IMG/VR virus record: IMGVR_UViG_3300035698_002680
Coordinates: 1 to 24,764 of that record
DNA: 24,764 nucleotides
Direction: 5' to 3' (one strand)
Source: a virus
The notes under the pieces are model-generated. The model was given only the letters and a program-made list of their open reading frames with translations, ran no database searches and was not told the origin of the DNA. Both the position numbers and the translations under genes were made by a program. Position 1 is the stretch's first letter, and the number at the start of each line of letters is the position of its first letter. Shown in pieces: positions 341 through 24,475 of this stretch.

Positions 341-679
341 ATGGCAATCCCGAAGAAGATTCTGAAACAGGTTCAAGGGCGTGATCCGTACTGTTGGCAT
401 TGCGGGCGCGAGGATGACCTGGTGCCACACCATCGAATCAATCGGGGCATGGGTGGATCGAAATTGTTGGACACGGTTGACAACCTGATGATGGTGTGCG
501 CGTTGTGGAACGGTCGCATGGAATCGGATGCGGGTCAAGCGGTGACGGCGCGTGAACTAGGTCACAAATTGTCTGCATGGCAATCGACTAGGTTGCCGGT
601 GTTCGATTCGGTGTCGTGTGAATGGTTCGAATTGCAAGATGATGGGTCGAAGGTGGTAGTGTCTGAAGCCACATTCTAG
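341..679 (+). CDS. HNH endonuclease-like protein
   Basis: This 112-residue protein carries the HNH (His-Me finger) pattern: a CWHCG zinc-knuckle start near residue 18, the first histidine pair in LVPHHRINRGMGGS at about 29-43, then DNLMMVC and WNGRMESDA. The last metal-ligand position is Asn rather than His, as I recall for the actinophage family that also ends with the ARE-G-KLS-WQ segment seen here. It would nick or cut DNA. It is the first gene of the left arm and seems leaderless (ATG right after TAGACT plus 6 bases). Role is uncertain: a free-standing homing-type nuclease or a replication helper. The fold assignment is good, the cutting activity inferred. Confidence 0.72.
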   Translation: MAIPKKILKQVQGRDPYCWHCGREDDLVPHHRINRGMGGSKLLDTVDNLMMVCALWNGRMESDAGQAVTARELGHKLSAWQSTRLPVFDSVSCEWFELQDDGSKVVVSEATF

Positions 680-691
680 GAAGGAACCATT

Positions 692-979
692 GTGGATTAT
701 GCGAAGCAGTACGGCATCGACATTGATGCGTTGTGGATGGAACATCCGTCACATCCGGATCAGTTGAAGTTCGCGAAACGTTGGCGGAAAAAGGCTGACG
801 TGTATTGGCTGATGAACATGTTGGCGCAACGTTCGGAACCGACTGGCGTGCAAAATAAGCGTCGGAACATGTCGCCAAAAACGCCACGGAAAAAGTATGT
901 GGCGCAAACCGAATTTGAAGATTGGCAACTGCAAATTGCGATCAATAGTTTGATGCGGCAGGCAAAATCTAATGACTGA
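692..979 (+). CDS. Hypothetical protein, 95 residues
   Basis: I do not recognise this family. The GTG start at 692 is chosen because a strong AGGAAGGAA ribosome site ends a few bases before it. The protein is charged, with a basic middle (KRRNMSPKTPRKK, about residues 55-67) that could touch nucleic acid, and predicted helices on both sides. Its 3' end overlaps the next gene by 8 bases, so it is probably translated with the replication initiator. No membrane segment or signal peptide is seen. Confidence 0.7.
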   Translation: MDYAKQYGIDIDALWMEHPSHPDQLKFAKRWRKKADVYWLMNMLAQRSEPTGVQNKRRNMSPKTPRKKYVAQTEFEDWQLQIAINSLMRQAKSND

Positions 980-1712
980 ATCAATTACGACGGACATTCG
1001 ATTCAGCATTGTTCCGGAATGGGTGTTGGATGCGCCGGTGTCGGATCGTGCGATTCGTGTCTACACAATTTTGGCGCGGTATGCGGACAACGATACGTTG
1101 CAGGCGTTCCCATCACGGTTGTTGTTATCGGAACGGTGTCGGTGTTCGGTGAAATCCGTCGATCGTGCCGTTGAAGAACTGATGACGGTTGGGGCGATTG
1201 ACAAACAACGTCGCGTCAAAGACGGTCACTATCAATCATCGTTATATACGGTGAAGCGGGTGGCGGCGTCACCCGTGACGCTAGGCGGCGTCACCCGTGA
1301 CACTAGGGCGGCGTCACCCGTGACGCATAGAACTAGAACCATTGAACTAGAACCACATAATGAGAACGACATCATTCAACACTTCAACACATTTTGGGAT
1401 TTGTTTCCCCGGAAACTTGGAAAGGGCGAAGCGAAACAGGCGTTTGCAAAGGCGGTGAACACCCACGGACATGATGTGGTCCTGGATGGGTTGCGACGTT
1501 TTGTTGATGATCCCAATTTGCCACCCAAACAATTCATTCCACGCCCGGCGACCTGGTTGAATCAAGAACGTTGGGACGATGAACCATATCCGGAAGAAGC
1601 AAAAAAACCGTGGGAGCGTTTAGCGATCACACCCGGCACGCGGGATTGGGTGGAACAAATGCACAACATTGGGGAGCATTGGGAATGTCGACCCGGTGAA
1701 TTTGGACACTAG
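972..1712 (+). CDS. Replication initiator / replisome organiser with winged helix
   Basis: The 246-residue protein has two parts. Residues about 5-90 look like a winged-helix DNA-binding domain (RAIRVYTILARYAD, then SVKSVDRAVEELMTVGAI as recognition and following helices). Residues about 130-205 carry the phage initiator tail pattern FWDLFPRKLGKGEAKQAF ... PATWLNQERW. Between them, residues about 97-118 are encoded by the tandem DNA repeats at 1262-1328, an arrangement like the lambda O gene, where the origin sits inside the initiator gene. It would bind the origin and recruit the host helicase; that job is inferred from the family. Start ATG 972 overlaps the previous gene by 8 bases. The ribosome site is weak, suggesting translational coupling. 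Confidence 0.75.
   Translation: MTESITTDIRFSIVPEWVLDAPVSDRAIRVYTILARYADNDTLQAFPSRLLLSERCRCSVKSVDRAVEELMTVGAIDKQRRVKDGHYQSSLYTVKRVAASPVTLGGVTRDTRAASPVTHRTRTIELEPHNENDIIQHFNTFWDLFPRKLGKGEAKQAFAKAVNTHGHDVVLDGLRRFVDDPNLPPKQFIPRPATWLNQERWDDEPYPEEAKKPWERLAITPGTRDWVEQMHNIGEHWECRPGEFGH
1262..1328 (+). repeat. Three iteron-like repeats inside the initiator gene (candidate origin)
   Basis: Three 22-base copies start at 1262, 1284 and 1307, each beginning GGCGGCGTCACCCGTGAC. The core GTCAC-CC-GTGAC is an inverted repeat. The step from copy 2 to copy 3 is 23 bases. Copies 1 and 3 are read as AASPVT while copy 2 is read in another frame as GGVTRDT, so the DNA, not the peptide, is what is conserved. This is what a protein-binding origin would look like. 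Confidence 0.6.
1330..1354 (+). repeat. Short direct repeat next to the iterons
   Basis: GAACTAGAACC occurs twice, at 1330-1340 and 1344-1354, a 14-base period, directly after the three larger repeats. It is followed by an AT-richer stretch that could be an unwinding element. Function is inferred only from position. Confidence 0.4.
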
Positions 1713-1723
1713 GAAGGAATGTC

Positions 1724-2350
1724 ATGGGTTTGGAAGGGTATGAAGTTCATCCGATTGGGTATTCGGAAGCGGTCGACATGATTGTCAAAAATCATTATTT
1801 GCATCGACGTGGACCGGCATCACATTCGTTTGGGTTGTTCAACGAACACGGGACGATTGTCGGTTGCATCACATACGGAACACCGGCGTCGAATAGTTTG
1901 TGTATTGGGTTGGCGGGTGCGGACGAAGCGCCACATGTGATCGAACTGACACGGTTGTGGATTGCGGACGTGACACCGAAAAATGCGGAATCGTTTTTGA
2001 TTGGTCGATCGTTGCGCATGTTGCCGGATGAAAAAAACATTGTGGTTTCGTTTGCAGAAATTCAAGCGGGTCATCGTGGGACGGTATATCAAGCGACGAA
2101 TTGGATATATACCGGGATGTCCGATCGTCATTCGCAATGGTCATTGGATGGGGAACCGACAAACAAACATTCGCGCCACTTGTGGGATCAGTATGGCGGG
2201 ATTGAAAACGCGAAGCGTGTGTTGGGTGATCGAATGGTGAAATCGGAACGTCCACGGAAGCATCGTTATGTGATGATCCGGGGTTCGCGTCGTCGTCGAA
2301 ACGAATTGATTTCGAAACTTCGGTATGCGCCACAGTCTTACCCGATTTGA
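1724..2350 (+). CDS. Mom-like DNA modification protein (GNAT-related), copy 1
   Basis: The 208-residue protein matches the pattern of phage Mu Mom relatives: NHYLHRRGP near residues 23-31, SFGLF, GCITYGTPAS, then ELTRLWIADVTPKNAESFLIG, then VVSFAEI and GTVYQATNWIYTG. Mom uses an acetyltransferase-like fold to place a carbamoyl-type group on adenine, protecting phage DNA from restriction. The C-terminal third is basic and contains RGSRRRRNE, suitable for DNA contact. The core is shared with the protein at 7126-7878, so the phage has two paralogues. ATG 1724 follows AGGAAGGAATGTC. The substrate and the modified base cannot be read from sequence. Confidence 0.72.
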   Translation: MGLEGYEVHPIGYSEAVDMIVKNHYLHRRGPASHSFGLFNEHGTIVGCITYGTPASNSLCIGLAGADEAPHVIELTRLWIADVTPKNAESFLIGRSLRMLPDEKNIVVSFAEIQAGHRGTVYQATNWIYTGMSDRHSQWSLDGEPTNKHSRHLWDQYGGIENAKRVLGDRMVKSERPRKHRYVMIRGSRRRRNELISKLRYAPQSYPI

Positions 2351-2374
2351 TTTTTTTCGATTATCGTGTAAAGT
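2347..2374 (+). promoter_or_regulatory. Early-type promoter before the papain-like gene
   Basis: TTGATT (2347-2352) and TAAAGT (2369-2374) are 16 bases apart, with GTG just before the -10. The leader TAGTCACAACGAAGGAAGGA and the following ACACAATG are shared with the reverse-strand gene starting at 13834. The -35 overlaps the end of the Mom-like gene. Confidence 0.6.
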
Positions 2375-2401
2375 GGTAGTCACAACGAAGGAAGGAACAC
2401 A

Positions 2402-2818
2402 ATGACAAAATTCATCCAAACCGACGGCGGTCGATCCGACGCTGGTTTCAAAGGTGAAGCAAATGATTGCGTTGCCCGTGCGGTCGCAATCATCACGTGC
2501 CGACCATATGCCGATGTCTACAAAGAATTGTCACGGTTCATGAAAGACAACGGTCAACAAGGATCGGCACGAAACGGCATCCCCAACAAACTGACCAAAA
2601 AGTATTTGGACGCGTTGGGTTTTGAATGGGTGCCAACGATGCACATCGGTTCCGGGACCACCGTCCACTTGCGTGGGGACGAACTGCCATCCGGTCGCAT
2701 CATCGCCAACGTGACGCGCCACGTGGTCGCCATGATTGACGGCACCATCCACGACACCCACAACCCGGACCGCGGTGGCACACGCGCCGTCTACGGGTTT
2801 TGGCGGTGGATTGCGTAA
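2402..2818 (+). CDS. Papain-like (cysteine peptidase-fold) phage protein
   Basis: The 138-residue protein has the layout of a small papain-like fold found in many phages: Cys23 in NDCVARA at the start of a helix, His107 in TRHVVAMIDG, and Asp118/Asn121 in IHDTHNPDRGG. These could form a Cys-His-Asp/Asn triad. Its target is unknown; a host protein or an amide bond in another substrate are both possible. It has its own promoter at 2347 and a strong hairpin terminator after it, so it is a single-gene unit. Catalysis is inferred, and the protein could have lost activity. Confidence 0.6.
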   Translation: MTKFIQTDGGRSDAGFKGEANDCVARAVAIITCRPYADVYKELSRFMKDNGQQGSARNGIPNKLTKKYLDALGFEWVPTMHIGSGTTVHLRGDELPSGRIIANVTRHVVAMIDGTIHDTHNPDRGGTRAVYGFWRWIA

Positions 2819-2837
2819 CGATTACCGCGACGGAAGG

Positions 2838-2865
2838 AAACCCGCTTAGGCGGGTTTTCTTTTTG
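2838..2865 (+). terminator. Rho-independent terminator
   Basis: AAACCCGC and GCGGGTTT form a perfect 8-base stem with a TTAG loop (2838-2857), followed by the T-rich run TTCTTTTT. It ends the transcript of the papain-like gene and sits just before the leaderless promoter of the next gene. Confidence 0.85.
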
Positions 2866-2870
2866 TCCGT

Positions 2871-2882
2871 TACCATTGGGGC
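2871..2882 (+). promoter_or_regulatory. Leaderless promoter -10 for the zinc-ribbon gene
   Basis: TACCAT at 2871-2876, six bases, then GTG at 2883. No ribosome site is present. The T-run of the preceding terminator ends just upstream. Confidence 0.45.
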
Positions 2883-3164
2883 GTGCCGATCATCACATGT
2901 CAACGTTGCGGATTCGAATGGACTGTCAATTCCATCCGACGCAATTCCAAAACGTGTTCGTCATGCCGGGCACGGAAGGTTCAAACGGTTCACACGGTCA
3001 CGGGAAAATGCATTCCGTGGCATGGATTTTTCGCCGTCGATCAAATCACGCCGATGGGCGATGACGGTTTGCCAATGATGCCGGGTGTCCGGATTTGTGG
3101 GAACGAAGATTGTGTCGCCAGTTCCCACGTTGTCCCCCGTGTCGGTAGTTCTGCTATAGAATGA
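2883..3164 (+). CDS. Zinc-ribbon protein, possibly His-Me finger related
   Basis: The 93-residue protein has two CXXC pairs (Cys6/Cys9 and Cys25/Cys28), forming a likely zinc ribbon, and a second half with Cys43 in GKCIPWHG and CGNEDCVASSHV at about 72-83. That last segment resembles the C...DCVNP.H motif of phage His-Me finger nucleases, but the usual CGH histidine is Asn here, so the site may be degenerate. GTG 2883 is the start because it follows TACCAT plus six bases; no Shine-Dalgarno is seen. Its last codons overlap the promoter of the SSB gene. Function unknown; nucleic-acid binding is the best guess. Confidence 0.62.
   Translation: MPIITCQRCGFEWTVNSIRRNSKTCSSCRARKVQTVHTVTGKCIPWHGFFAVDQITPMGDDGLPMMPGVRICGNEDCVASSHVVPRVGSSAIE
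3152..3162 (+). promoter_or_regulatory. Promoter for SSB
   Basis: TGCTATAGAAT contains an extended -10 (TG-C-TATAGA) and, shifted by two, the TAGAAT box used elsewhere in this genome. TTGTCC at 3130-3135 is a possible -35 but 19 bases away. The SSB ribosome site CGGAAGGAA lies about 20 bases downstream. Confidence 0.5.
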
Positions 3165-3191
3165 ATCGATAACGTTCACGGAAGGAACATC

Positions 3192-3566
3192 ATGGCAATT
3201 CAAATTCAGTTCGAAGGATTCATCAACGAAGTGAAGGCGTTCGATTGGGGCACCGTCTACGACGTGGCGCACACACAATTCACGAAGGGACATCAAGGCG
3301 ATTGGGAAGTCGCCGGGAAAGATTATTTTTCCGTAATTGGTGATCCGGGTTTCGAAAAGGATCAACGGGTTTCAATCACCGGTCGCATGAAAACGAAACG
3401 GTATGACAAACGTGACGGCACAAAAGGGGTGAAATTGGAAGTCCGTGCCGAAGAAATCAAGTTGGTTCCCAAAGGGTCCAAGAATGAAGACAAAGTCGGT
3501 CACGCCGCCGTGAACGCCGTGTGGGACGTCACACCGGTCCCAATCAATGAAAGCGCACCTTTCTAA
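3192..3566 (+). CDS. ssb: Single-stranded DNA-binding protein (OB fold)
   Basis: The 124-residue protein has the SSB strand pattern near residues 55-95: QRVSITGRMKTKRYDKRDG followed by VKLEVRAEEIKLV. The C-terminus ends in an aromatic tip, NESAPF, like the DDDIPF-type tails that recruit partner proteins, although less acidic. It would coat single-stranded DNA during replication and recombination. It has its own promoter (3152) and a GGAAGGAA ribosome site. The stop codon overlaps the next start (TAATG). The N-terminal half is divergent from bacterial SSB, so confidence is moderate. Confidence 0.68.
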   Translation: MAIQIQFEGFINEVKAFDWGTVYDVAHTQFTKGHQGDWEVAGKDYFSVIGDPGFEKDQRVSITGRMKTKRYDKRDGTKGVKLEVRAEEIKLVPKGSKNEDKVGHAAVNAVWDVTPVPINESAPF

Positions 3567-3721
3567 TGGCAACCGGTTCACGGATCGTCGCAACGGTCAT
3601 GATTGCGTTGCTAGCGGTTCTTTCATATCAGGCGGAACCAATCACCGGGACAATTGGATGGATTGCAACCGCATTGTTGACGATTTCGTTCATCATGTCG
3701 TTTAGGCGTCAATCCCGCTAA
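3566..3721 (+). CDS. Small two-helix membrane protein, 51 residues
   Basis: ATG at 3566 overlaps the SSB stop as TAATG, and the frame stays open to TAA at 3719-3721. The product begins MATGSRIVATVMIALLAVLS and has two hydrophobic segments, about residues 7-20 and 27-45, joined by a short polar turn (YQAEPITG), ending in a basic tail RRQSR. That layout fits a two-pass inner membrane protein with both ends in the cytoplasm. I do not recognise the family. It is odd in a replication cluster. Its stop codon is part of the -10 box of the RusA gene. Confidence 0.65.
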   Translation: MATGSRIVATVMIALLAVLSYQAEPITGTIGWIATALLTISFIMSFRRQSR

Positions 3722-3729
3722 ACTGAAGC
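3719..3729 (+). promoter_or_regulatory. Leaderless-type -10 for rusA
   Basis: TAAACT at 3719-3724 is followed by five bases and the GTG at 3730. The TAA is also the stop codon of the membrane protein gene. No ribosome site is seen. Confidence 0.4.
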
Positions 3730-4176
3730 GTGGTCAAATTCTTCGTGCCCGGTCGACCGGCGCCGCAAGGATCGAAACGTTCGGTCGGTCATGGACGATT
3801 CATCGAAGCGTCAAAGTACCTTCCCGCATGGCGTAAGGCGGTCACGGAATTTGCAATCTACGAAACCACAATGACATCGTGGGACACCATTCACGGTCCC
3901 GCACGATTGATTGTCAGTTTCTATTTGGAGCGACCATCGTCGATCAGCAAACGAAAACGACCGTTTCCGATTGTGCCACCCGATTTGGACAAGTTGTGTC
4001 GCGGCGTCGCGGACGCATTGTCGGATGCGGGCGTGTGGGGCGACGATAGTCAGGTGGTCGAATTGATTGCGACAAAGCATTATGCGGACACAAGTGAAAC
4101 CGGTGTGATGATTGAAGTGACGGAATTGAACACGCCGGAACATGATTCAAAGTTGCCAATTGAAATATTGCTATAA
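3730..4176 (+). CDS. rusA: RusA-like Holliday junction resolvase
   Basis: The 148-residue protein matches RusA: an N-terminal strand FFVPGRPAPQGSKR, then PPDLDKLCRGVADALSDAG followed by VWGDDSQVV. Asp85, Asp87 and Asp105/106 fit the metal-binding aspartates of the family, and Arg91 sits where RusA has its essential lysine. It would cut four-way junctions and debranch DNA before packaging. The GTG start at 3730 is favoured by the TAAACT box five bases upstream and because the first strand begins straight after it. It forms a recombination group with SSB and the phosphoesterase. Confidence 0.85.
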   Translation: MVKFFVPGRPAPQGSKRSVGHGRFIEASKYLPAWRKAVTEFAIYETTMTSWDTIHGPARLIVSFYLERPSSISKRKRPFPIVPPDLDKLCRGVADALSDAGVWGDDSQVVELIATKHYADTSETGVMIEVTELNTPEHDSKLPIEILL

Positions 4177-4192
4177 ACTGATTTCAAATCAG
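4172..4192 (+). promoter_or_regulatory. Possible promoter with operator palindrome
   Basis: TATAAACT (4172-4179) runs into the perfect inverted repeat CTGATTT-C-AAATCAG (4178-4192), directly before the AGGAAGGAAA ribosome site of the gene at 4206. A protein bound there would block transcription or the start region. TTGCCA at 4153-4158 is a weak -35 at 13-15 bases. The same inverted repeat could instead form an RNA hairpin. Confidence 0.35.
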
Positions 4193-4205
4193 GAAGGAAA
4201 CAAAA

Positions 4206-4436
4206 ATGCTTGAAGATATGAAGTTGGAACAAACATTGTTGCCATGCATCGTTCGGACAATCATTGAATCACTTGACGATAATGACCGACATATTTTGTC
4301 GGAAGCGTTGGACAATTCGTCATGGGGAGATTTGCCGTTGTCAAAGGCGTTGACGAAACGCGGATTGCGGGTGTCGAATTTTTCAATCAAAAAACATCGC
4401 GACAAAGAATGTTCGTGCAGGTTGATCAATGCTTGA
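4206..4436 (+). CDS. Small HTH-like protein, 76 residues
   Basis: The protein is helical with the pattern DDNDRHILSEALDNSSWGD, then LPLSKALTKRGLRVSNFSIKKHR and a cysteine-bearing end. This looks like a helix-turn-helix of a type common in actinophages (LSRALKARG ... S..TI.RHRR). DNA binding is likely, its target unknown. ATG 4206 follows AGGAAGGAAACAAAA, and it lies just below a 15-base palindrome that could be its own operator. The end overlaps the phosphoesterase start by 8 bases. Confidence 0.6.
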   Translation: MLEDMKLEQTLLPCIVRTIIESLDDNDRHILSEALDNSSWGDLPLSKALTKRGLRVSNFSIKKHRDKECSCRLINA

Positions 4437-5586
4437 AAACCTGAAGCCAGCGGACAAGGTTGTCGCACCACCGAACTTTCGTCCCGGTGTTGAATTCGAT
4501 GGATCGCAAGGAACTGCGACGACACCCGGATATGACAACGAACCGGAAAATTTTGATGAATTCTTACGTGATGCCGGATTGGACCCGGATGGAATCGATG
4601 TCATTCCACCCGTACGCACGTCACGATGGCAACAACAAAAGGATGGTGAATTGGTTTGGTTGACGTCGTACCGGTTCACGTTCCGTCAAAAAGCGTCGGA
4701 CATCAATTTGCCGGTGTTGTTAGCGGAAGCACAAAAGAAAATTCGCAAACCGAAGGCGGTCACAACCCAACCGCGTGCCCTGGTGATTATGTGGTCCGAT
4801 TTGCAGGTCGGGAAAGTGGATTATCGGGGCAATAGTGTTTCGCTATTGGAACGTGTGGCGTTGATGCAGGATCGTTTGGTCGATCAAATCAAACGCGAAA
4901 AACCTGATCGTGTCATATTTGCCGACTTGGGCGATACGGTTGAAAACTTCTACAACGCTAATAGCGCACAACAAATGATGACGAACGATTTGTCAATCAT
5001 GGAACAAGTCGATGTCGCGACCACGTTGGCATTTCAAACAATGAAACGCGTCCACGAACATGTTCCTGACATCACCTATGCGTCCGTAGGTTCAAACCAT
5101 TGTCAATTCCGGATGAACGGGAAAACGGTGGGGAAACCGACCGACGATTGGGGCGTGTTCATCGGACGTCAAATTGCACGATTGTCACAAGAAGCCGGGT
5201 TTGGATGGAAATTCGTTGAACCACAACCACACGATGAATCATTAGCGGTTGACGTATTCGATGACGGGTTCCACATTCTAGGGATCGCTCACGGACACCA
5301 AGCGCGTCGACCGGACATGATGGCAACATGGTGGCGTCAACAAGCGTTTGGCAAACAACCCGTCGCGGACGCAAACATTTTGATTCACGGGCACTTCCAT
5401 CACCTGCGTGTTACCGAACTAGGGTCAACATCACGTGGCACGTCACGATTCCTCATCATGGCTCCCACAATGGACAACGGGTCCGGATGGTTCAGGTTGA
5501 CGACGGGTGAAGATTCCGTCCCCGGACTTGCCACCATGATCCTTGAAAAGGGTGTGGACTATACGGGAACGGTGTTCAAACTATGA
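4429..5586 (+). CDS. Calcineurin-like metallophosphoesterase
   Basis: The 385-residue protein carries the five blocks of the metallophosphoesterase fold: SDLQVGK (Asp124; the usual His of DXH is Gln126), ADLGDTVEN (Asp166/Asp169), GSNHCQ (Asn223-His224), AHGH (288-290) and IHGHFHH (320-324). About 110 residues precede this core and include an acidic, disordered-looking segment (residues 22-60). Members act as nucleases or phosphatases; in this replication and recombination cluster an SbcD-like nuclease role is plausible. Its start overlaps the preceding gene by 8 bases and its stop overlaps the next start by 4 (ATGA), so it is read as part of an operon. Confidence 0.82.
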   Translation: MLENLKPADKVVAPPNFRPGVEFDGSQGTATTPGYDNEPENFDEFLRDAGLDPDGIDVIPPVRTSRWQQQKDGELVWLTSYRFTFRQKASDINLPVLLAEAQKKIRKPKAVTTQPRALVIMWSDLQVGKVDYRGNSVSLLERVALMQDRLVDQIKREKPDRVIFADLGDTVENFYNANSAQQMMTNDLSIMEQVDVATTLAFQTMKRVHEHVPDITYASVGSNHCQFRMNGKTVGKPTDDWGVFIGRQIARLSQEAGFGWKFVEPQPHDESLAVDVFDDGFHILGIAHGHQARRPDMMATWWRQQAFGKQPVADANILIHGHFHHLRVTELGSTSRGTSRFLIMAPTMDNGSGWFRLTTGEDSVPGLATMILEKGVDYTGTVFKL

Positions 5587-5867
5587 CCGACAACAAACCG
5601 ACCGCATGGACACCACGCGACGACATCCATTTGGAAGTGTGGAAATATCACAAGCACGTTGCGGAACTTGCCAATTCCAACGCGGTTGTCCATTTTGCCC
5701 GTGACCTATTGGAAGAAGAACACGGGTTAGACGACTACGAAATGGACACATTGGAAACGTTGATTGACGTGGCAATTGACGCGGACAAAGTAATTCAAAA
5801 ACATTTTGGCGAAAATTACGTTGCGGAATACGTTGAACAAATCGATGAAGGGAATCATGATGGATAA
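5583..5867 (+). CDS. Hypothetical acidic protein, 94 residues
   Basis: Starts at ATG 5583, overlapping the phosphoesterase stop by four bases (ATGA). The protein is strongly acidic and helical, with EVWKYHKHVAELANSN and LLEEEHGLDDYEMDTLETLID. No cysteine cluster, membrane helix or known motif is seen. Acidic small early proteins of phages are often DNA mimics or host inhibitors, but nothing here proves that. The next gene begins inside its last codons. Confidence 0.65.
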   Translation: MTDNKPTAWTPRDDIHLEVWKYHKHVAELANSNAVVHFARDLLEEEHGLDDYEMDTLETLIDVAIDADKVIQKHFGENYVAEYVEQIDEGNHDG

Positions 5868-6006
5868 CGCAGAACAAGTGCTGACCGTTGCAGCACAATA
5901 CCGGGAACAGTTATCGGAAGCGATAACACGTGACGACATCCGCGAACGCATGGAATGGTATCGGCACGAAGGCATCCCATTGTTCAAACCACCCGCCACC
6001 GACTAA
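5857..6006 (+). CDS. Hypothetical protein, 49 residues
   Basis: The start is ATG 5857 or, more likely by ribosome-site spacing, ATG 5860, each after GAAGGGA. An upstream ATG at 5806 in the same frame lies deep in the previous gene and lacks a ribosome site. The product (MDNAEQVLTVAAQYREQLSE and on) is helical and charged, ending LFKPPATD. Family not recognised. It overlaps the previous gene by 11 bases, which suggests coupled translation. Confidence 0.55.
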   Translation: MMDNAEQVLTVAAQYREQLSEAITRDDIRERMEWYRHEGIPLFKPPATD

Positions 6007-6038
6007 TCGACCATCGAAACAAAAAAAGAAAAAATATT

Positions 6039-6389
6039 ATGGCACCCGCCTATGGGTTCAACCGCCCATGCTTGACATGCGGACAACTGGCACGTGAATC
6101 GTACTGCGAACAACACAAACCAAAACGGAAACGTGGACCGGAATCGTCACGACGACGCGTGAAGAAGTCCACCCTGTACGGGGGCGACTACAAACGTCGC
6201 GCAAAAATTGTTCGCGCAACCGCACAACAATGTCATTTATGTGGGGGAGGGGCGAAGGCGGGCGACCCGTGGGAAGCCGATCACATACACCCGGAATTAG
6301 GATCACAATCCGTTTTGCTACCGGCACATAGGTCATGCAACCGCAAACGCGGAAACCGACCAATGACCACACAACCACCACGCACATAA
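6039..6389 (+). CDS. HNH endonuclease
   Basis: The 116-residue protein starts at ATG 6039; the frame is open further upstream but that part overlaps the previous gene and reads as noise. Residues about 8-25 hold a CLTCGQLARESYCEQH zinc finger, followed by a basic linker (KPKRKRGPESSRRR). The HNH site is CHLCGGG ... WEADHIHPELGS ... LPAHRSCNRKRGNR. All three key positions (DH, N, H) are kept. HNH proteins next to terminase genes help generate packaged ends in several phages, and this one lies shortly upstream of the packaging operon. The ribosome site is only A-rich (AAAAAAAGAAAAAA). Confidence 0.8.
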   Translation: MAPAYGFNRPCLTCGQLARESYCEQHKPKRKRGPESSRRRVKKSTLYGGDYKRRAKIVRATAQQCHLCGGGAKAGDPWEADHIHPELGSQSVLLPAHRSCNRKRGNRPMTTQPPRT

Positions 6390-6512
6390 CCGACCACACC
6401 CACCCACCGCCGGGCACAAACTAGGGGTGGGATCAAACATTATTAGCAAAACGATGCACCCCGTCAGCCCCATCCATGCGTAAAGCCGCGCAAAATTATC
6501 AGTTTTTCCGGC

Positions 6513-6524
6513 TAGGCTGGTGGC
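6513..6524 (+). promoter_or_regulatory. Leaderless promoter -10 for the packaging operon
   Basis: TAGGCT at 6513-6518, six bases, then ATG 6525. The 123 bases before it (6390-6512) hold no gene; they begin C-rich and end with an AT-richer stretch. This gap between an HNH gene and the packaging genes is a reasonable place for a cos or pac site, but no proof is visible. Confidence 0.5.
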
Positions 6525-7136
6525 ATGAAGAAAATGACGGTGGAACGTTTGTCGATTGCGGTGTTGACGCCGGACCCGGAAAATGCGCGAACACATGATG
6601 ATGCGAATGTGCGGGTGATCGCGGGAAGCCTTGAACAGTTCGGTCAACGCAAACCGATTGTGATCACGGCGGACAATGTAATCGTCGCGGGTAATGGTAC
6701 GGTGCGGGCGGCGCAGTCGTTGGGTTGGTCGGACATTGATGCGGTGCGTGTTCCCGCGGATTGGTCGGACATGAAAGTCAAAGCGTTTGCGCTTGCGGAT
6801 AACCGGACGGCGGAAATGGCGGAATGGAACGTCACGGTTTTGGACGAACAATTACAGGCGTTGACGTTTGACGGTTTTGAAATTTCCGCGTTTGGTTTTG
6901 ATTCTCAGGAATTGCCCGCGGAATCAGAGTGGTCGGACTTGAACGATGCGGTCAAGGATCGTAGCGGGACGCAACAAATGACGTTCGTCGTGTCCGATGA
7001 TCAGGTGGAAACGATACAACAGGCGTTGAGAGTGTCAAAGTCTTTGGGGGAATTCGATCAATCGGAAAATGTGAACGGAAACGGAAACGCGTTGGCGCGG
7101 GTTTGCGAAATGTTTTTGGGCAATCATGGGGGCTAA
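6525..7136 (+). CDS. ParB/sulfiredoxin-fold nuclease-like protein
   Basis: The 203-residue protein has a ParB N-terminal domain in residues about 8-105: LTPDPENARTHDDANVRVIA, LEQFGQRKPIVI, then IVAGNGTVRAAQSLGW and AFALADNRTAE. The GNGTVRAA box corresponds to the CTP/nucleotide-binding GERR-type motif. The rest is a less conserved tail that is probably phage-specific. In phages this domain often sits with DNA modification genes just before the terminase, as here. The start overlaps no other gene and follows the TAGGCT box by six bases. The 3' end overlaps the Mom-like gene by 11 bases. Function, nuclease or modification partner, is not settled by sequence. Confidence 0.78.
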   Translation: MKKMTVERLSIAVLTPDPENARTHDDANVRVIAGSLEQFGQRKPIVITADNVIVAGNGTVRAAQSLGWSDIDAVRVPADWSDMKVKAFALADNRTAEMAEWNVTVLDEQLQALTFDGFEISAFGFDSQELPAESEWSDLNDAVKDRSGTQQMTFVVSDDQVETIQQALRVSKSLGEFDQSENVNGNGNALARVCEMFLGNHGG

Positions 7137-7878
7137 AGATTTAGTGTTGCGACGGATTTCGTCAACGGATGCAAACGCGGTTGTTCGCAAATATCATTAC
7201 AGCGGAAAAGTTGTTCCGAATTCCCAAATCCACATTGGCGTTTTCTATATGGGCAAACTGGAAGGGGCGATGCAGTTTGGTCCGTCAATCGACAAACGCC
7301 GGGTTTCCATGCTGGTAGAAGGAACTGGATGGAATCAGTTTGTGGAATTGAACCGGATGGCATTCAGTCCCGCCTTACCGAAAAATAGTGAATCGCGTGC
7401 AATTGCAGTTTCGATGCGGTTGTTGAAAAAACACGCACCCAATTTGAAATGGTGTGTTTCGTTTGCAGACGCAACGCAATGTGGCGACGGGACTATATAC
7501 CGGGCATCGGGATTTTTGTTGACGCAAATCAAACCCAATAAGCAAATGCTTTTGTGGAAGGGGAAAGTGATTGCAAAAAAAACGTTGGACAATGAAAACT
7601 TCCCCCGGATAGGTGGGAAATACTATTCGCGTCATTTGATTGAAACTGGGGCAGCGGTTCCGTTGCAGGGTTTCCAACTTCGCTATGTCTATTTTTTGGA
7701 TCAATCATGGCGGGATCGTTTGAAATCAGACATTATTCCATTTGATGAAATTGAAAAAGTCGGTGCAACAATGTATCGTGGGAATCGCCCTGGAAGCATT
7801 GCTAGCGATGCGTCTGACTTCCGGTCAGAAGAAGGAAGTGCAAATCTTACCTCAGGGCTCGAAACGCGAGAGCAATAA
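7126..7878 (+). CDS. Mom-like DNA modification protein (GNAT-related), copy 2
   Basis: The 250-residue protein shares the core layout of the protein at 1724-2350: KYHYSGKVVPNSQ (about 22-34), GVFYMGKLEGAMQFG, ELNRMAFSPALPKNSESRAI, then CVSFADATQCGDGTIYRASGF. The PKN-ES and SFA ... GT-Y-A blocks line up between the two. This copy has an added C-terminal part, including a YSRHLIETGAA segment and a serine-rich tail SIASDASDFRSEEGS. It is placed between the ParB-like gene and TerS, overlapping the first by 11 bases and the second by one. It probably modifies phage DNA, possibly with the ParB-like protein as targeting partner; this is inference. Confidence 0.7.
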   Translation: MGAKDLVLRRISSTDANAVVRKYHYSGKVVPNSQIHIGVFYMGKLEGAMQFGPSIDKRRVSMLVEGTGWNQFVELNRMAFSPALPKNSESRAIAVSMRLLKKHAPNLKWCVSFADATQCGDGTIYRASGFLLTQIKPNKQMLLWKGKVIAKKTLDNENFPRIGGKYYSRHLIETGAAVPLQGFQLRYVYFLDQSWRDRLKSDIIPFDEIEKVGATMYRGNRPGSIASDASDFRSEEGSANLTSGLETREQ

Positions 7879-8324
7879 TGCCAGCCGGACGACCGTCGAA
7901 ACCTATTGAACAGAAGCGGGCGCTAGGCAATCCGGGACGTCGCCCGTTGCCCGATGAAAACGCGGTGCAATTGATTCCCGCGATTGATGCGGTTCCGGAA
8001 CCGTCACGTCCGTTGCTGAAGTATGGTCGCGAATTGTGGGATCGCGTTTGGGGGATGGGTGTGACATGGATTTCACCGAACAGCGATTTCGAAATTTTGT
8101 TGATGACGTGCGAATTGGTCGATGAACGTTGGAACTTACGCATTCAGGTGATGCAATCGGGTGATCCGAAACAGCGTCGAGGGTTGCGTGAATTGGATCG
8201 ACAAATTGTTTCGAACTTGTCGTTGTTGGGTTTCACACCGTCGGATCGTTCACGGTTGGGTGTTGCGGAAGTCAAGGCGCGTTCAAAGTTGGAAGAATTG
8301 ATGTCGCGACGGGATGAATGGTGA
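7878..8324 (+). CDS. terS: Terminase small subunit, P27 type
   Basis: The 148-residue protein opens with GRPSKPIEQKRALGNPGRRPL, the hallmark start of P27-family small terminases. It is followed by a helical body and a C-terminal helix GVAEVKARSKLEELMSRR that likely makes oligomer contacts. It would recognise the packaging site and regulate the large subunit. ATG 7878 overlaps the stop of the Mom-like gene by one base (TAATG). The end overlaps TerL. Length is normal for the family. Confidence 0.85.
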   Translation: MPAGRPSKPIEQKRALGNPGRRPLPDENAVQLIPAIDAVPEPSRPLLKYGRELWDRVWGMGVTWISPNSDFEILLMTCELVDERWNLRIQVMQSGDPKQRRGLRELDRQIVSNLSLLGFTPSDRSRLGVAEVKARSKLEELMSRRDEW

Positions 8325-9841
8325 TGGAAAAGATTGATGGTTGGGCACCGCAATGGTTGACGAAGGCGACGGAAGAATCATTGAATTCGAACCGTGCGGA
8401 TATGGCAATCAAGTTCATTGAAGACTTTGGTGTGATCACAAAAGATTCGGTGTCCGGCAAAACGGGCGAACGTCTGGTGTTGCGTGATTGGCAGAAAGAA
8501 TTGGTCCGTCATATTTATGCACAAGAATCGGGCGGGTACAAGTACAAACTGGCTTTGTGTGGTTTGCCACGTAAGAACGGAAAAAGTGCGTTAGCGTCCC
8601 ATCTGGCGCTATTTGACACCATATTTGGACCGGGTGGCGGGGAAACGTATTCGGTAGCGGCGACACGTGATCAGGCACGAATCGTTTTTGGGGAAGCGAA
8701 AAAAATTATTTCCGCGGATGAAGAATTATCGGCGCTTGCGAAACTGTATCGGGACGCCATTGAAATTCCCGCAACGGGTTCCGTCTATCGGGTTTTGTCC
8801 GCAGAAGCGGGTGCCGCCGAAGGCTTGAATAGCACCGCCGTGTGGATCGACGAATTGCACGCACAACCCAATCGGCGCATGTTCGATGTCATGCAATTGT
8901 CGATGGCGGCGCGTGGAAACAAAGCGCACATGGTTGCAATCACAACCGCGGGTGTGAAGTCGGATTCGTTAGGGCATGATTCAATTTGTTTCGATCTGTA
9001 TCAGTACGGAAAAAAAGTTGTTCGTGGTGAAATGGATGATCCGAATTTCATGTTGGCGTGGTGGGAATCGGATGGCGATCACAGACTGCCGGAAACGTGG
9101 AAGGAAGCAAACCCCGGTTTTGCGGATTTGAATGACGAAGCGGATTTCGAAGCGGCGGTCCGTCGCACACCGGAACCGGAATTCCGGACCAAACGTTTGA
9201 ACCAATTTGTGTCGTCTGCAATGTCATGGTTGCCGGTCGGTGCGTGGGATGAATGTCAAACGGAAATGTCGATCACACCGGACGATGAAATCATTTTAGG
9301 ATTCGATGGTTCTTTTTCTGGGGACTGTACCGTCGTGGTTGCGGCGACGGTTGCGAAGGATGGTTCCCCGGTACGCGTGGAATTGGTGAAGGCTTGGGAA
9401 AAAAATTTGGAACAAGACGATGATGATTGGCGTGTGGATATTGCAGACGTGGAACAAACAATCATCAACTATTGTCAAACCCATCCGAAGGTTTTGGAAA
9501 TCGCGTGTGACCCATTCCGGTGGCAGCGTTCGATGCAGGTGTTGGAAGAACGTGGATTGCCGATTGTAGAATATCCGTCTACTTCCCCGCGAAGAATGGT
9601 GGGTGCTTGCGCCAAATTTTTTGACATGACGATGGACAAAGAAATTCAACACAATGGTGATCCCACGATTGCCCGGCATTTAGAAAACGCGGTTGTCAAA
9701 AACGACAATGTTGGTCCCCGCATTGTGAAGGAATCGCGAAATAGTCCCCGCAAAATTGACGCAGCGGTTGCCGTTGTGATAGCAGTGGACCGCGCCACAG
9801 TCGCTAGAATGGAAGAAGTTGTCCCGCAATTTTTCGGATAG
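8318..9841 (+). CDS. terL: Terminase large subunit
   Basis: The 507-residue protein has an N-terminal ATPase with Walker A GLPRKNGKS (82-90), Walker B AVWIDE (174-179) and a coupling motif ITTAG further on, then a nuclease domain opening ILGFDGSFSGD near residue 328 and later acidic sites such as ACDPFRW. It is the motor that pumps DNA into the head and cuts it. ATG 8318 or ATG 8324 could be the start; the latter overlaps the TerS stop as TGATG, the junction style used repeatedly here. The gene contains no GAG or CTC trinucleotide in either strand. Confidence 0.93.
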   Translation: MVMEKIDGWAPQWLTKATEESLNSNRADMAIKFIEDFGVITKDSVSGKTGERLVLRDWQKELVRHIYAQESGGYKYKLALCGLPRKNGKSALASHLALFDTIFGPGGGETYSVAATRDQARIVFGEAKKIISADEELSALAKLYRDAIEIPATGSVYRVLSAEAGAAEGLNSTAVWIDELHAQPNRRMFDVMQLSMAARGNKAHMVAITTAGVKSDSLGHDSICFDLYQYGKKVVRGEMDDPNFMLAWWESDGDHRLPETWKEANPGFADLNDEADFEAAVRRTPEPEFRTKRLNQFVSSAMSWLPVGAWDECQTEMSITPDDEIILGFDGSFSGDCTVVVAATVAKDGSPVRVELVKAWEKNLEQDDDDWRVDIADVEQTIINYCQTHPKVLEIACDPFRWQRSMQVLEERGLPIVEYPSTSPRRMVGACAKFFDMTMDKEIQHNGDPTIARHLENAVVKNDNVGPRIVKESRNSPRKIDAAVAVVIAVDRATVARMEEVVPQFFG

Positions 9842-15188: not shown

Positions 15189-15200
15189 ATGCTGGGGCGC
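15188..15200 (+). promoter_or_regulatory. Leaderless promoter -10 for the GT4 gene
   Basis: TATGCT at 15188-15193, seven bases, then ATG 15201. It begins at the end of the capsid terminator, so this gene needs its own start. An upstream ATG at 15171 lies inside the terminator stem and is not the start. Confidence 0.5.
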
Positions 15201-16388: not shown

Positions 16389-16902
16389 TCCCGTGGAAGT
16401 ATAGATCGCACGAATTCGGATTGTATTCGAACGAATGTTCGATGAATAGTTCGTCTAGGTCGAACATTTGTTCGAAGTCGTTTTGGTTTAGGTTGCGATA
16501 GTAGTCCCATCGGATCGTGTGTGGGGATGATCCGGGATCGGTCCGTGATGTCCCGTGTTCCGCACGCCCGTCGCTTGCGCATGTCATGATCACGTGTTTG
16601 TTTGTCATGCGGATCATGTTCGCGAATGTGCGTTCCCATTCTGGGTTGTGTTCGAAACATTCGGCGCTGATGGCGGTGTCGAACGATCCGTCCGGATAGT
16701 CAACGTCTTCCCCTAATGCGACGACGTCGACGCCGGGTCCGGGTCCGACGTCGATGCCAACGTATTCGGTGGCGCTGAAAAAGTCGCGCACGGTGCCGTT
16801 GATGTTTAGCGATCCGATTTCGATGACGCGCACATTGTCAAATGCGTCCGGGTAACGGTTGCGGATTTTGTTCATGAAGTCGCGTTGTTGGATGTGTGCC
16901 AT
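16369..16902 (-). CDS. SAM-dependent methyltransferase (reverse strand)
   Basis: The 177-residue protein starts at ATG 16902 (reverse), chosen because TATTCT stands six bases before it; an upstream start at 16998 would overlap the GT2 gene. It shows the class I fold: VIEIGSLNINGTVRDFF (motif I), YVGIDVGPGPGVDVV (acidic strand end), FDTAISAECFEHNPEWERTF and the strand VIMTCAS. It resembles the Methyltransf_11 type that acts on small molecules or sugars. It stands antisense between two glycosyltransferases, so a methylated glycan is a natural guess. Its last 20 bases are antisense to the GT4 gene end. Confidence 0.8.
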   Translation of the reverse strand: MAHIQQRDFMNKIRNRYPDAFDNVRVIEIGSLNINGTVRDFFSATEYVGIDVGPGPGVDVVALGEDVDYPDGSFDTAISAECFEHNPEWERTFANMIRMTNKHVIMTCASDGRAEHGTSRTDPGSSPHTIRWDYYRNLNQNDFEQMFDLDELFIEHSFEYNPNSCDLYFHGIKRKIL

Positions 16903-16919
16903 GTCACTAGAATATCGGA
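16903..16919. promoter_or_regulatory. Two overlapping divergent leaderless promoters
   Basis: The 17-base gap holds TAGAATA (16908-16914). Read forward, TAGAAT (16908-16913) plus six bases leads to ATG 16920. Read backward, TATTCT (16914-16909) plus six bases leads to the ATG ending at 16902. A forward -35 TTGTTG (16885-16890) sits 17 bases upstream inside the methyltransferase gene. Polymerase could serve only one direction at a time. Confidence 0.6.
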
Positions 16920-17567
16920 ATGCTTCCAAACATGATTGTGCCGGTGTTGAATCGGTACGACCTATTGCAACGGTTGTTGGATTCAATCGATTTCCCAATC
17001 CGTGACCTTTTGATTGTGGACAATGGGGATGGTGTCGATCAGTTGCATTTCCCGGACTATGTTTTGAATTCGCACATTTTGCCGTTGCCGTCGAACTTGG
17101 GTGTGGCTGGTTCGTGGAATTTGGGGATCAAGTTGTTTCCACACGATGACATGTGGATTTTTGCGTCTAATGATGCGTGGTTTCGACCAGGCGCCCTTCA
17201 ACGGCTACAGAACGCCCGTCGGGACGAAATAACATTGTCTGATGTGTTTCCCCATTGGCAGGTGTTTTCGGTCGGTGACGTGGCGCACACGGCGCTGGGT
17301 TTGTTCGACGAAGGAATTTATCCGGCATTTTTTGAAGACAACGACATGGCGCGACGTGCGGAACATCATGATGTGCCAATCCGCATGATCGACATGGGTG
17401 TGGAACACGACAATTCATCGACGATCCATTCCGATGCCAAATTAGGTTTGGCTAATGCGCGAACGTTTGTCCGGAATCGGGATTATTATTTCGACAAGAT
17501 TGCGCGGGATGATTTTGGGGAAGGCGGTTGGTCGTTGTCGACGCGTCGCGTCAATCGTTGGGACTAG
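16920..17567 (+). CDS. Glycosyltransferase, GT2 / GT-A type
   Basis: The 215-residue protein follows the GT-A plan: NMIVPVLNRYDLLQRLLDSI (1-23), DLLIVDNGDG, then SNLGVAGSWNLGIKLF, MWIFASNDAWFRP (the usual metal-binding DXD is reduced to ND), and AFFEDNDMARRAEHHDVPI with acidic catalytic-type residues, ending VEHDNSST. It transfers a sugar from a nucleotide donor; the acceptor is unknown. ATG 16920 is leaderless-style. It forms a probable decoration cassette with the GT4 protein and the methyltransferase. It is followed by a terminator that serves the opposite strand. Confidence 0.8.
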   Translation: MLPNMIVPVLNRYDLLQRLLDSIDFPIRDLLIVDNGDGVDQLHFPDYVLNSHILPLPSNLGVAGSWNLGIKLFPHDDMWIFASNDAWFRPGALQRLQNARRDEITLSDVFPHWQVFSVGDVAHTALGLFDEGIYPAFFEDNDMARRAEHHDVPIRMIDMGVEHDNSSTIHSDAKLGLANARTFVRNRDYYFDKIARDDFGEGGWSLSTRRVNRWD

Positions 17568-17568
17568 C

Positions 17569-17596
17569 AAAAATCCCCCATCGAAATGGGGGATTG
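17569..17596 (-). terminator. Terminator for the reverse-strand gene at 17613
   Basis: AATCCCCCAT (17572-17581) and ATGGGGGATT (17586-17595) form a perfect 10-base stem with a CGAA loop. The T-run (GGGGGATTTTT) is on the reverse strand, so it ends the antisense gene; on the forward strand it would be weak. Confidence 0.8.
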
Positions 17597-17612
17597 TTGC
17601 CACAACCCGGTG

Positions 17613-17777
17613 TCAGATTCGGTCGTTCAAAATTTTGATCATGTCGGAAATTTCTTGAACCTTTATCAGGTGCATTTCCCGTTCGGTTTCGGACGTTGCG
17701 GTTTCAGCAAGTTCAACCCGGATTTTCATCGACTTGATTAGTTTGCGGAAGTTGATGTCGTTTCGTTTGGTGTTCAT
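17613..17777 (-). CDS. Hypothetical helical protein, 54 residues (reverse strand)
   Basis: ATG at 17777 follows AACGAAAGGAAACACA on the reverse strand. The product begins MNTKRNDINFRKLIKSMKIR and continues as one long amphipathic helix (VELAETATSETEREMHLIKVQEISDMIKILNDRI), suited to a coiled coil. Family not recognised. It has its own early-type promoter and terminator, standing as a single-gene unit between the GT2 gene and the connector operon. A small regulator or host-interaction peptide would fit. Confidence 0.65.
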   Translation of the reverse strand: MNTKRNDINFRKLIKSMKIRVELAETATSETEREMHLIKVQEISDMIKILNDRI

Positions 17778-17799
17778 TGTGTTTCCTTTCGTTGTCGTG

Positions 17800-17834
17800 T
17801 CTATAACTATACACACCTAACGAATGAAATGCAA
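17800..17834 (-). promoter_or_regulatory. Early-type promoter for the 17613 gene
   Basis: On the reverse strand: TTGCAT (17834-17829), 17 bases, TATAGT (17811-17806), then TATAGA (17805-17800). It copies the promoter at 13856-13890 in spacing and sequence, with a leader ending AACACAATG style. Confidence 0.72.
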
Positions 17835-17872
17835 CAACACACACAAACTTTTTTCCGCCACACGGTCCCCGG

Positions 17873-17878
17873 TAGAAT
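17873..17878 (+). promoter_or_regulatory. Promoter -10 for the connector and tail operon
   Basis: GGTAGAAT with TAGAAT at 17873-17878. A GTG five bases downstream (17884) opens a seven-codon frame, and GGTGGAGG (17883-17890) is a ribosome site for ATG 17898. No clear -35. Confidence 0.55.
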
Positions 17879-17883
17879 AGAAG

Positions 17884-17907
17884 GTGGAGGCTTACACATG
17901 GCAATAA
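17884..17907 (+). other. Possible leaderless mini-ORF before the connector gene
   Basis: GTG-GAG-GCT-TAC-ACA-TGG-CAA-TAA would encode a 7-residue peptide whose stop lies just after the connector start (17898). A similar arrangement precedes the gene at 19792. It may be a real upstream ORF used for coupling, or the GTGGAGG may only be a ribosome-binding site. Confidence 0.35.
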
Positions 17908-18920: not shown

Positions 18921-19337
18921 ATGAGCCGCTTCGTAGCGACTGATTACAAAATCACAATCAATGGCACCGATTTCTCTAACAGTATCGCTGCCGTCACAAT
19001 GGACATCAGTTCCGAAGAACAGGACGTTACCGCATTCGGCGGCAGCGGATACCGCACAAGAATCGGCGGCTTGAAAGATGCAAGCGTCACGCTTGACTTC
19101 CACCAAGATTTCGGCGCAGCAGCGGTTGACGCCACATTGTTCCCATTGTTGGGATCGAACGCAACCGTCACCGTGTTCCCAACTTCGGCAACCGTGTCCG
19201 CAACCAATCCGTCTTATACCGGCGAATTTTTGGTTTCTTCCTATTCTCCATATTCGAGTACGGTCGGGGATTTGGCTACGCTTAGCGTTTCCTGGAACCT
19301 TGCTGGAACCGCTGGGATTGCACGCGCCACAGCCTAA
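18921..19337 (+). CDS. Major tail (tube) protein
   Basis: The 138-residue protein is rich in beta strands with the tube-protein pattern KITINGTDFSNSIAAVTMD, EEQDVTAFGGSGYRTRIGGLKDASVTLDFHQDFG, and ends with VGDLATLSVSWNLAGT. These match small siphophage tail tube proteins that stack as hexamer rings. It lies just before the frameshifted chaperone gene, as expected. The ribosome site is AAGGGGAAAAAA before ATG 18921. Confidence 0.8.
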   Translation: MSRFVATDYKITINGTDFSNSIAAVTMDISSEEQDVTAFGGSGYRTRIGGLKDASVTLDFHQDFGAAAVDATLFPLLGSNATVTVFPTSATVSATNPSYTGEFLVSSYSPYSSTVGDLATLSVSWNLAGTAGIARATA

Positions 19338-19344
19338 TTTCGGC

Positions 19345-19769: not shown

Positions 19770-19774
19770 TGTAG

Positions 19775-23845: not shown

Positions 23846-23856
23846 GGAGCAACGCC

Positions 23857-24123
23857 GTGGCAATTCCCGCAGGTTTCAAAACGTTCGTCGCGGGCGACGT
23901 CCTTACCGCTGAGCAGGTGAACACGTTTTTGATGTCGCAATCAATTCCCGTGTTTGCTGATGCAACGGCGGCGGGTTCGGCTATTGCGTCACCGCAGGAA
24001 GGTCAACACCGATTCTTGAAGGACACGGATGCGTTTGAATACTATACGGGTTCGGCTTGGGTTGCTGCTGGTGGTGCCGGTGGCGGTGGTTTCGAAACAA
24101 ACTTTCTATTGATGGGGGCATGA
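23857..24123 (+). CDS. Small tail-tip / fibre-associated protein, 88 residues
   Basis: A GTG start at 23857 follows a strong AAGGAG site (23844-23849). The sequence AGFKTFVAGDVLTAEQVNTFLMSQ followed by DATAAGSAIASPQEGQHRFLKDTDAFEYYTGSAWV is a frequent virion protein pattern of actinophages, often found at the base of tail fibres. A glycine-rich linker ends it. Structural role in the tail tip is likely; its exact place is not known. Confidence 0.7.
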   Translation: MAIPAGFKTFVAGDVLTAEQVNTFLMSQSIPVFADATAAGSAIASPQEGQHRFLKDTDAFEYYTGSAWVAAGGAGGGGFETNFLLMGA

Positions 24124-24124
24124 C

Positions 24125-24463
24125 ATGGCTACGGCTTACAAAACATTAGGTCAATTGGACATGACGTCCGCAACGTTGACAACACTTTACACTTGCCCGG
24201 CGTCGACGGAAACCGTGATTAGCACGGTGATCATTGCGAACCGCGCAACATCCGCGGACACGTTCCGTCTGGCATTACGTACTGATGGGGACGCCATCAG
24301 CGATAAACATTTCCTTGCGTACGATGTTCCCGTGGCGGCGTCAGATTCGACCACGTTGACGTTGGGGATCACTATGGCGGCGACGGATGTTCTTTCGGTC
24401 GCTGCGGCAGGCACGGCGTCCGAACTGTCCATCAATGCTTTCGGTGCTGAAGTAACCGTCTAG
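24125..24463 (+). CDS. Virion tail protein, 112 residues
   Basis: A beta-rich protein with the pattern TLGQLDMTSATLTTLYTCPASTETVISTVIIANR, then strands FRLALRTDGD and DVLSVAAAGTASELSINAFGAEV. This all-beta small protein is common next to fibre genes in actinophages. It starts one base after the preceding stop and has GGGGG as a weak ribosome site. Function as fibre accessory or decoration is inferred. Confidence 0.65.
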   Translation: MATAYKTLGQLDMTSATLTTLYTCPASTETVISTVIIANRATSADTFRLALRTDGDAISDKHFLAYDVPVAASDSTTLTLGITMAATDVLSVAAAGTASELSINAFGAEVTV

Positions 24464-24475
24464 GGGGGGCTTGTT

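Follow-up and report, generated by a model that had tools for sequence, protein, structure and literature searches.

Phages are already known to escape host defenses by losing target sites, a pattern described for restriction sites and, in milder form, for the protospacer adjacent motifs (PAMs) of clustered regularly interspaced short palindromic repeats (CRISPR) systems. Enzymes acting at 3-bp sites also exist, as exemplified by the nickases Nt.CviPII (CCD) and Nt.CviQXI (R/AG), and the same source cites a methyltransferase paper under the title “M.CviQII methylates AG sequences” (PMC7019647). A phage against which the present one can be compared, phiPsal1 (MG835450), was found with the marine actinobacterium Pontimonas salivibrio, a related host in which a restriction system is reported to be present (PMC6106888). 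Here, we analyzed the virus record IMGVR_UViG_3300035698_002680, a stretch of 24,764 bases (the window) that comes without a host genome, with respect to the trinucleotide GAG and its complement CTC. An earlier note on this DNA had claimed near-total avoidance of GAG/CTC on both strands and had proposed selection against a 3-base site; the avoidance was borne out by the counts below, while the interpretation as a whole is partly supported.

The window holds 88 copies of GAG/CTC against approximately 346 expected under an order-1 Markov (dinucleotide) model, a ratio of 0.25; TAA/TTA comes next among the trinucleotides, at 0.58. Expectations vary with the model used (mononucleotide, dinucleotide, or maximal order), and both figures are given where they differ; against mononucleotide expectation, the GAG level is 0.11. 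Two stretches named earlier as free of the word were confirmed, namely positions 8324–9841 of the terminase large subunit (TerL) gene (0 vs ~20 expected by order-1 Markov) and positions 15185–17885 (0 vs ~30), although the figure of about 80 expected copies in the latter holds under equal trinucleotide frequencies and not by dinucleotides. Codon choice alone does not account for the loss, as had been argued: GAG/CTC copies spanning codon boundaries number 28, compared with 184.1 in 300 shuffles of 28 open reading frames (ORFs) that keep synonymous usage (z = −15.2). On the plus strand, 35 GAG and 17 CTC remain in 22,580 window bases (ends, capsid, and tail-tube genes excluded), while phiPsal1 carries 509 GAG and 304 CTC in 31,069 bases. 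Since the loss is alike for GAG and CTC and extends across codon boundaries, it belongs to the double strand rather than to codons or mRNA.

A model of synonymous choice, from which the window's capsid, tail-tube, and second Mom-family genes were excluded, put the cost of AG/CT at ~1.2 log units and added another 2.3 for GAG/CTC beyond all dinucleotides, with a log-likelihood gain from the GAG term of +173 to +175. The corresponding terms in two related loci, L423 and L367, were −1.99 (+88.2) and −2.69 (+312.0), while that of phiPsal1 was −0.25 (+6.7). A longer hidden word was considered and rejected, as all 16 NGAGN contexts stand at 0.48 or below in the window core; in L367 these contexts are uneven, from 0 to 0.60, and phiPsal1 is equally uneven (chi-square 121 vs 110). 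Six contigs of the window's virus differ at nine positions, none of which creates or destroys a GAG/CTC, a number too small for counting.

The distribution of the loss along the window is best followed by means of its features, for which the levels of GAG/CTC and AG/CT are given relative to mononucleotide expectation:

341–679, plus strand: small HNH endonuclease gene, a candidate for self-avoidance
1724–2350, plus strand: first Mom-family gene, GAG/CTC 0, AG 0.20
7126–7878, plus strand: second Mom-family gene, less depleted (GAG 0.19, AG 0.55)
8318–9841, plus strand: TerL gene, GAG/CTC 0
14005–15132, plus strand: major capsid protein gene, with relative sparing (GAG 0.37, AG 0.73)
15158–17886: block free of GAG/CTC, bounded by sites at 15155 and 17887
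18921–19337, plus strand: tail-tube gene, assigned by position and likeness to the phiPsal1 tail tube (GAG 0.29, AG 0.69)
341–24463: strongly GAG/CTC-depleted stretch, 52 copies vs 291 expected with the capsid and tube genes excluded
1–340: non-coding end of near-normal composition (GAG 0.94, TA 1.13), containing both AGCT copies of the window
24464–24764, plus strand: end stretch of near-normal composition (GAG 0.76)

The word had been described as common at both ends (1–120 and 24476–24764) and in the capsid gene; the ends are indeed near normal, while the capsid gene is itself reduced, and the list of spared parts was incomplete in that the tail-tube gene is also partly spared. Relative sparing of the capsid gene is common to all three avoiding branches described below. 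In L423, the capsid (0.42) and tube (0.47) genes stand out from remaining segments at 0 to 0.24; in L416, the capsid gene lies at 0.70 vs 0.22 in positions 1–6700; in L520, the capsid gene holds 29 of 49.3 expected GAG/CTC and the rest of the locus 18 of 96.8; and in L526, the figures are 28 of 47.9 for the capsid gene and 28 of 126.1 outside it. The spared window parts stay poor in palindromes (TTAA 0 vs 4.7 expected, GGCC 1 vs 9.2), and L367-lineage capsid genes contain neither GGCC nor TTAA; the palindromes therefore do not return there. Recent import was rejected as the cause of capsid sparing, as the gene's DNA is 72% identical to its nearest relative, in line with other genes. The end stretch 24464–24764, at 87% DNA identity to L281, was probably exchanged recently, judging by this similarity. 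At the opposite end, positions 126–340 are non-coding, lie upstream of the HNH gene, and share 87–88% DNA identity with L366 and L356 (HNH proteins 68–69%), and may perhaps represent a regulatory or origin element.

The remaining genes are those of a tailed phage. Besides the HNH endonuclease and the two Mom-family genes, they encode a replication initiation protein, SSB-like, RusA, exonuclease, and ParB-like proteins, terminase subunits, portal, protease, capsid, two glycosyltransferases, a connector, and tail proteins, and the GAG/CTC-free block comprises the two glycosyltransferase genes on the plus strand and one minus-strand gene (16369–16998). From the small terminase onward, the gene order is the same as that of phiPsal1, which points to an aquatic actinobacterium as the likely host. 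Scans of the window against Rfam (gathering threshold) and for tRNAs gave no match, and a scan of genomic contigs returned 304 TerL relatives, of which 80 were retained, none with an actinobacterial title. An earlier remark that most ribosome sites read GGAAGGAA rather than AGGAG was not confirmed, since GGAAGG lies within 20 bases before only 4 of 29 called starts and AGGAG or GGAGG before 2 of 29.

Six scans, for which TerL, tape-measure, exonuclease, portal, and capsid proteins served as queries, supplied the relatives. The 319- and 457-locus counts given below exclude 80 genomic loci (L113–L192), re-extracts (L001, L266–L269, L111), and loci under 4 kb; trinucleotide tallies exclude words with fewer than 40 expected copies; and the loci are not independent, being related and including some records twice (L367/L418, L003/L009). 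PhiPsal1 and TerL relatives at 57–77% identity show GAG at 0.34 to 1.13 of mononucleotide expectation. Sharing of the bias by relatives had been named as a possible refutation, and they do not share it to this depth, except for two further branches. The first is the L367 lineage (L363–L365, L367, L415–L418, L520, and L526), in which GAG/CTC is at 0.17–0.32 of dinucleotide expectation and AG near 0.9, and which has lost GGCC in 10 of 10 loci and, by the cut-off used, TTAA in 8 of 10, the other two being only 4.1 and 5.3 kb long. The second is L423, with TerL and portal proteins 62% identical to those of the window, GAG/CTC at 0.28 of dinucleotide expectation, AG at 0.39, TA at 0.31, one TTAA vs 27 expected, and no AGCT vs 8. 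Across the 457 viral loci of at least 4 kb (the window not counted), GAG/CTC is the sole trinucleotide to fall below 0.30 of expectation, and it lies below 0.35 in 18 of them (seven of the window's virus, the ten of the L367 lineage, and L423).

In trees of TerL (71 rows) and portal (47 rows), thinned for near-copies and limited to rows of at least 57% identity, the window, the L367 lineage, and L423 stand apart, with a minimum of three changes in each tree, and a single change fits none of 200 bootstrap trees. The exonuclease tree (63 rows) likewise separates the window from L367, and the capsid tree, made in a quick version only, requires at least three changes. Other words are softly avoided among relatives, though no other word is lost to the same degree or across so many loci: values of 0.40 or below were reached by L314 for GAG, by four loci for CCC, and by one each for TAA, AAT, AAA, ACG, and TCA. 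The weaker GAG-low loci L314 (0.39), L338 and L058 (both 0.42), and L523 (0.47) were kept outside the avoider count. As a separate observation, seven loci (L374, L375, L361, L373, L316, L319, and L311) softly avoid single trinucleotides, with ACG at 0.38 (ACGT 0/21), TCA at 0.40, GGA at 0.50 and 0.52, CAC at 0.49 and 0.44, and CCC at 0.37.

The claim of avoidance thus stands, but the window's bias is not restricted to GAG/CTC. In mononucleotide terms, AG/CT reaches 0.41 and TA 0.39 of the expected level, and three palindromes are nearly absent: TTAA (0, with 19 or 61 expected depending on the model, 19 at maximal order), GGCC (2, with 60 or 82 expected, 60 at maximal order), and AGCT (2, with 21 or 14 expected, 21 at maximal order). 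Strong avoidance of 4-bp palindromes was found widely among the 319 loci, with TTAA avoided in 111, GATC in 80, ACGT and CATG in 56 each, and GGCC in 51; this phage family lives under heavy restriction pressure. A few side observations concern further short words. CTA/TAG is favored in the codon model (~+2.1 to +2.2) in the window and L423 despite the avoidance of AG and TA, and CTAG occurs 39 times in the window vs 6 expected and 14 times vs 3 in L423. GATC is at about twice expectation in L363, L364, L365, and L367 (255 vs 128 in L367), while L201 has no copy and L275 one. Candidate further avoided sites are AGACC (0 vs 15), CCWWGG (0 vs 14), and RGATCY (0 vs 12) in the window and GCWGC (0 vs 20.5) and CCSGG (0 vs 16.7) in L367.

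Taken together, we give roughly even odds to the reading that selection at the DNA level is driving the 3-bp word GAG/CTC out of the phage genome, most likely as an escape from a DNA-targeting system of the phage's hosts. The basis is the depletion itself, its independence of codon usage, its strand symmetry, its occurrence in three branches, and a replacement spectrum made up mostly of transversions, so that the earlier proposal of selection on DNA against a 3-base site fared well. The strand symmetry, the shortness of the word, and the recurrence of its loss are all consistent with a host system by which DNA is nicked, cut, or marked at GAG/CTC. In this mechanism, hosts would carry a restriction or nicking enzyme, with a modification partner, acting at GAG/CTC on either strand, and the pressure per site would be modest enough to be overridden in the capsid and tail-tube genes, probably by the codon preferences of highly expressed genes. 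It would act beside ordinary 4-bp restriction sites such as GGCC, TTAA, and AGCT.

Several points weigh against this reading. No enzyme of GAG/CTC specificity was found; the precedent enzymes come from algal viruses and not from bacteria, and site avoidance as published concerns almost solely palindromic orthodox Type II sites, so far as that source goes (PMC6286503). The window and L423 are also short of AG/CT and TA, which a GAG enzyme would leave unexplained and which is absent or weaker in L367 (AG 0.89). When a positive CTA/TAG term is added to the dinucleotide model of the window, it gains 190.4, compared with 175.1 for GAG, while in L423 and L367, GAG is the term of largest gain (88.2 and 312.0). 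The flank preference varies, GAGC being the scarcest form in L367 (0.03) and not in the window (0.38). The capsid gene relaxes GAG/CTC but not GGCC or TTAA, and as the relaxation is limited to GAG/CTC, the pressure on this word differs from that on the palindromes in kind or strength. The loss of GGCC in L423 is partial (18 vs 46), and the joint loss of GGCC and TTAA may be due to chance: the two are lost together in 30 of 319 loci, counting the window, 12 of these 30 are GAG avoiders, and L353, L355, and others lose both palindromes yet keep GAG. Lastly, three changes are a minimum, and a single gain followed by losses is possible.

Among the alternatives, the one that survives best, while still unlikely, is self-avoidance, whereby a phage nuclease of 3-bp specificity, such as the HNH protein of 341–679, would nick or degrade host DNA and the phage would spare itself by losing the word. 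A phage HNH nickase recognizing 3–5 bp has been reported (PMC8845596), the window's HNH gene has counterparts at 47% identity in L363, L365, and L367, and single relatives avoid other trinucleotides (ACG, GGA, TCA, and CCC). The HNH genes closer to that of the window (63–69%; L366, L356, L346, L409, and L374) nonetheless sit in non-avoiding loci, compared with 47% for that of L367. A gene exclusive to avoiders was also sought among these loci, which are fragments, and none was found; the minus-strand ORF 13231–13695 occurs in the non-avoiding L193–L200 as well.

Two further explanations appear improbable to a similar degree. Loss of a PAM by the phages, with GAG or CTC serving a host CRISPR system, draws on reported phage PAM depletion for types I-C, I-E, II-A, and I-F (PMC4246573 and PMC12174588) and on a PAM being short and active on both strands; a near-tenfold genome-wide loss would nevertheless require very broad spacer coverage, and the loss of GGCC and TTAA would go unexplained. 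A context-dependent mutation bias of the phage or host lineage, held in check in the capsid and tube genes by selection on codons, is compatible with the trinucleotide context, the strand symmetry, and the relaxation in presumably highly expressed genes, and the unbiased stretch 24464–24764 appears to be recently exchanged. The replacement spectrum speaks otherwise. The earlier remark on TerL, that no serine TCN codon follows a codon ending in C, extends beyond that gene, as C is found at 0 of 157 fourfold codons before TC in 25 pooled window genes and at ~1% in L423 and L367. At fourfold third positions with C before and C after them across the codon boundary, T falls to 2–3% in the three branches, compared with 43–45% where the preceding base is G or T, and the lost T is not replaced by C (0.13–0.15; phiPsal1 0.16) but mainly by A (0.44–0.53; phiPsal1 0.29). 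Before TC, relative to other third positions followed by T in the same phage, A rises most and T slightly, and the rise of A in the window is partly general to third positions. Replacement mainly by the transition partner, as expected of mutation bias, was therefore not seen in the window, L423, or L367 when judged against phiPsal1 and same-phage contexts. As mutation is expected to leave mostly transitions, the prevalence of transversions argues for selection rather than mutation bias; L367, moreover, has lost GAG without losing AG.

A link to the phage's own Mom-type adenine modification, in which modification in short contexts would drive the loss of the target word, is very improbable. The core of Mu Mom is C/G-A-C/G, which GAG matches, and the window carries two Mom-family genes. 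These are ~28% identical to each other, and two Mom genes occur also in 11 of 109 other Mom-bearing loci. The link had been suggested earlier as a speculation and found no backing here, as the loss of C/G-A-C/G words is not consistently greater in loci with Mom than in those without: such a word is the lowest trinucleotide in 31 of 107 loci that carry Mom, 28 of 68 viral loci that do not, and 14 of 77 genomic loci, and by G+C class, the picture is mixed, with GAG and CAC somewhat lower in Mom-bearing loci at 52–66% and GAG higher at 45–52%. The trait did not follow the presence of Mom, as close relatives with a homologue of the second Mom gene (L194, L195, L197, L199, L200, and L249) keep GAG, and no Mom gene was found in L363–L365, L367, or the 14.7 kb of L423, an absence that carries little weight given that L367 and L423 are fragments. 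Finally, a cause at the codon or mRNA level (tRNA supply, Shine-Dalgarno-like words, or an RNase of 3-base specificity) could accommodate the skew of glutamate codons GAA:GAG (347:15 in the window with capsid and tube excluded, 195:246 in phiPsal1) but has next to no chance of being right, being contradicted by the disappearance of codon-spanning copies, by the similar loss of GAG and CTC from genes nearly all on one strand, by the minus-strand gene 16369–16998 that likewise lacks both, and by the capsid and tube genes being the least affected.

Returning to escape from a host system, we regard it as a tentative proposition, somewhat short of even odds, that Pontimonas-like aquatic actinobacteria carry an undescribed defense recognizing the 3-bp non-palindromic GAG/CTC and common enough to have caused its purge in three branches, with the exception of the capsid and, where seen, tail-tube genes. 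If true, phages would reveal the target word of a defense before the defense itself is known. When three branches show an approximately tenfold loss of an asymmetric 3-bp word, the enzyme specificity to be predicted has algal-virus nickases as its only precedent in the sources at hand, and a search of the literature returned no report of phage-wide GAG/CTC loss, which is no proof of absence. The spared capsid genes would serve as a yardstick of the strength of this pressure against codon selection.

Four known systems come closest to these findings. PhiPsal1 is like the window in family, gene order, and TerL (67% identical), and it differs in its GAG level (1.00 of Markov expectation), in having no Mom match, in an annotated N6 DNA methylase, and in its lowest 4-bp palindrome, AATT at 0.54. 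PAM depletion (Kupczok and Bollback 2014, PMC4246573; Ortega-Sanz et al. 2025, PMC12174588) resembles the present case in that a short asymmetric word is lost under host immunity, and it differs in that CRISPR was not found in Pontimonas salivibrio, according to the text available for that genome (PMC6106888). The chlorovirus nickases Nt.CviPII and Nt.CviQXI share 3-bp asymmetric words, one of them with AG (PMC7019647), but they are encoded by algal viruses, unlike the putative host system here, and an R/AG specificity does not fit, since AAG is at 0.73 in the window, 0.62 in L423, and 1.36 in L418, compared with 0.11, 0.13, and 0.20 for GAG; of the NAG words, AAG thus shows the smallest reduction in the window and L423, and L418 has an excess of it. 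Restriction-site avoidance by double-stranded DNA phages (Rusinov et al. 2018, PMC6286503) entails the same DNA-level loss of short sites, with the vast majority of reported cases being orthodox Type II and the terms “3 bp” and “trinucleotide” absent from the main text of that report. By sequence, the window's losses of TTAA, GGCC, and AGCT, all palindromes within the 4–8 bp range, are of this kind, while GAG/CTC, at 3 bp and asymmetric, falls outside it; under-representation beyond that of sub-words, a further mark of Type II avoidance, is nevertheless common to GAG/CTC (0.25), TTAA, GGCC, and AGCT.

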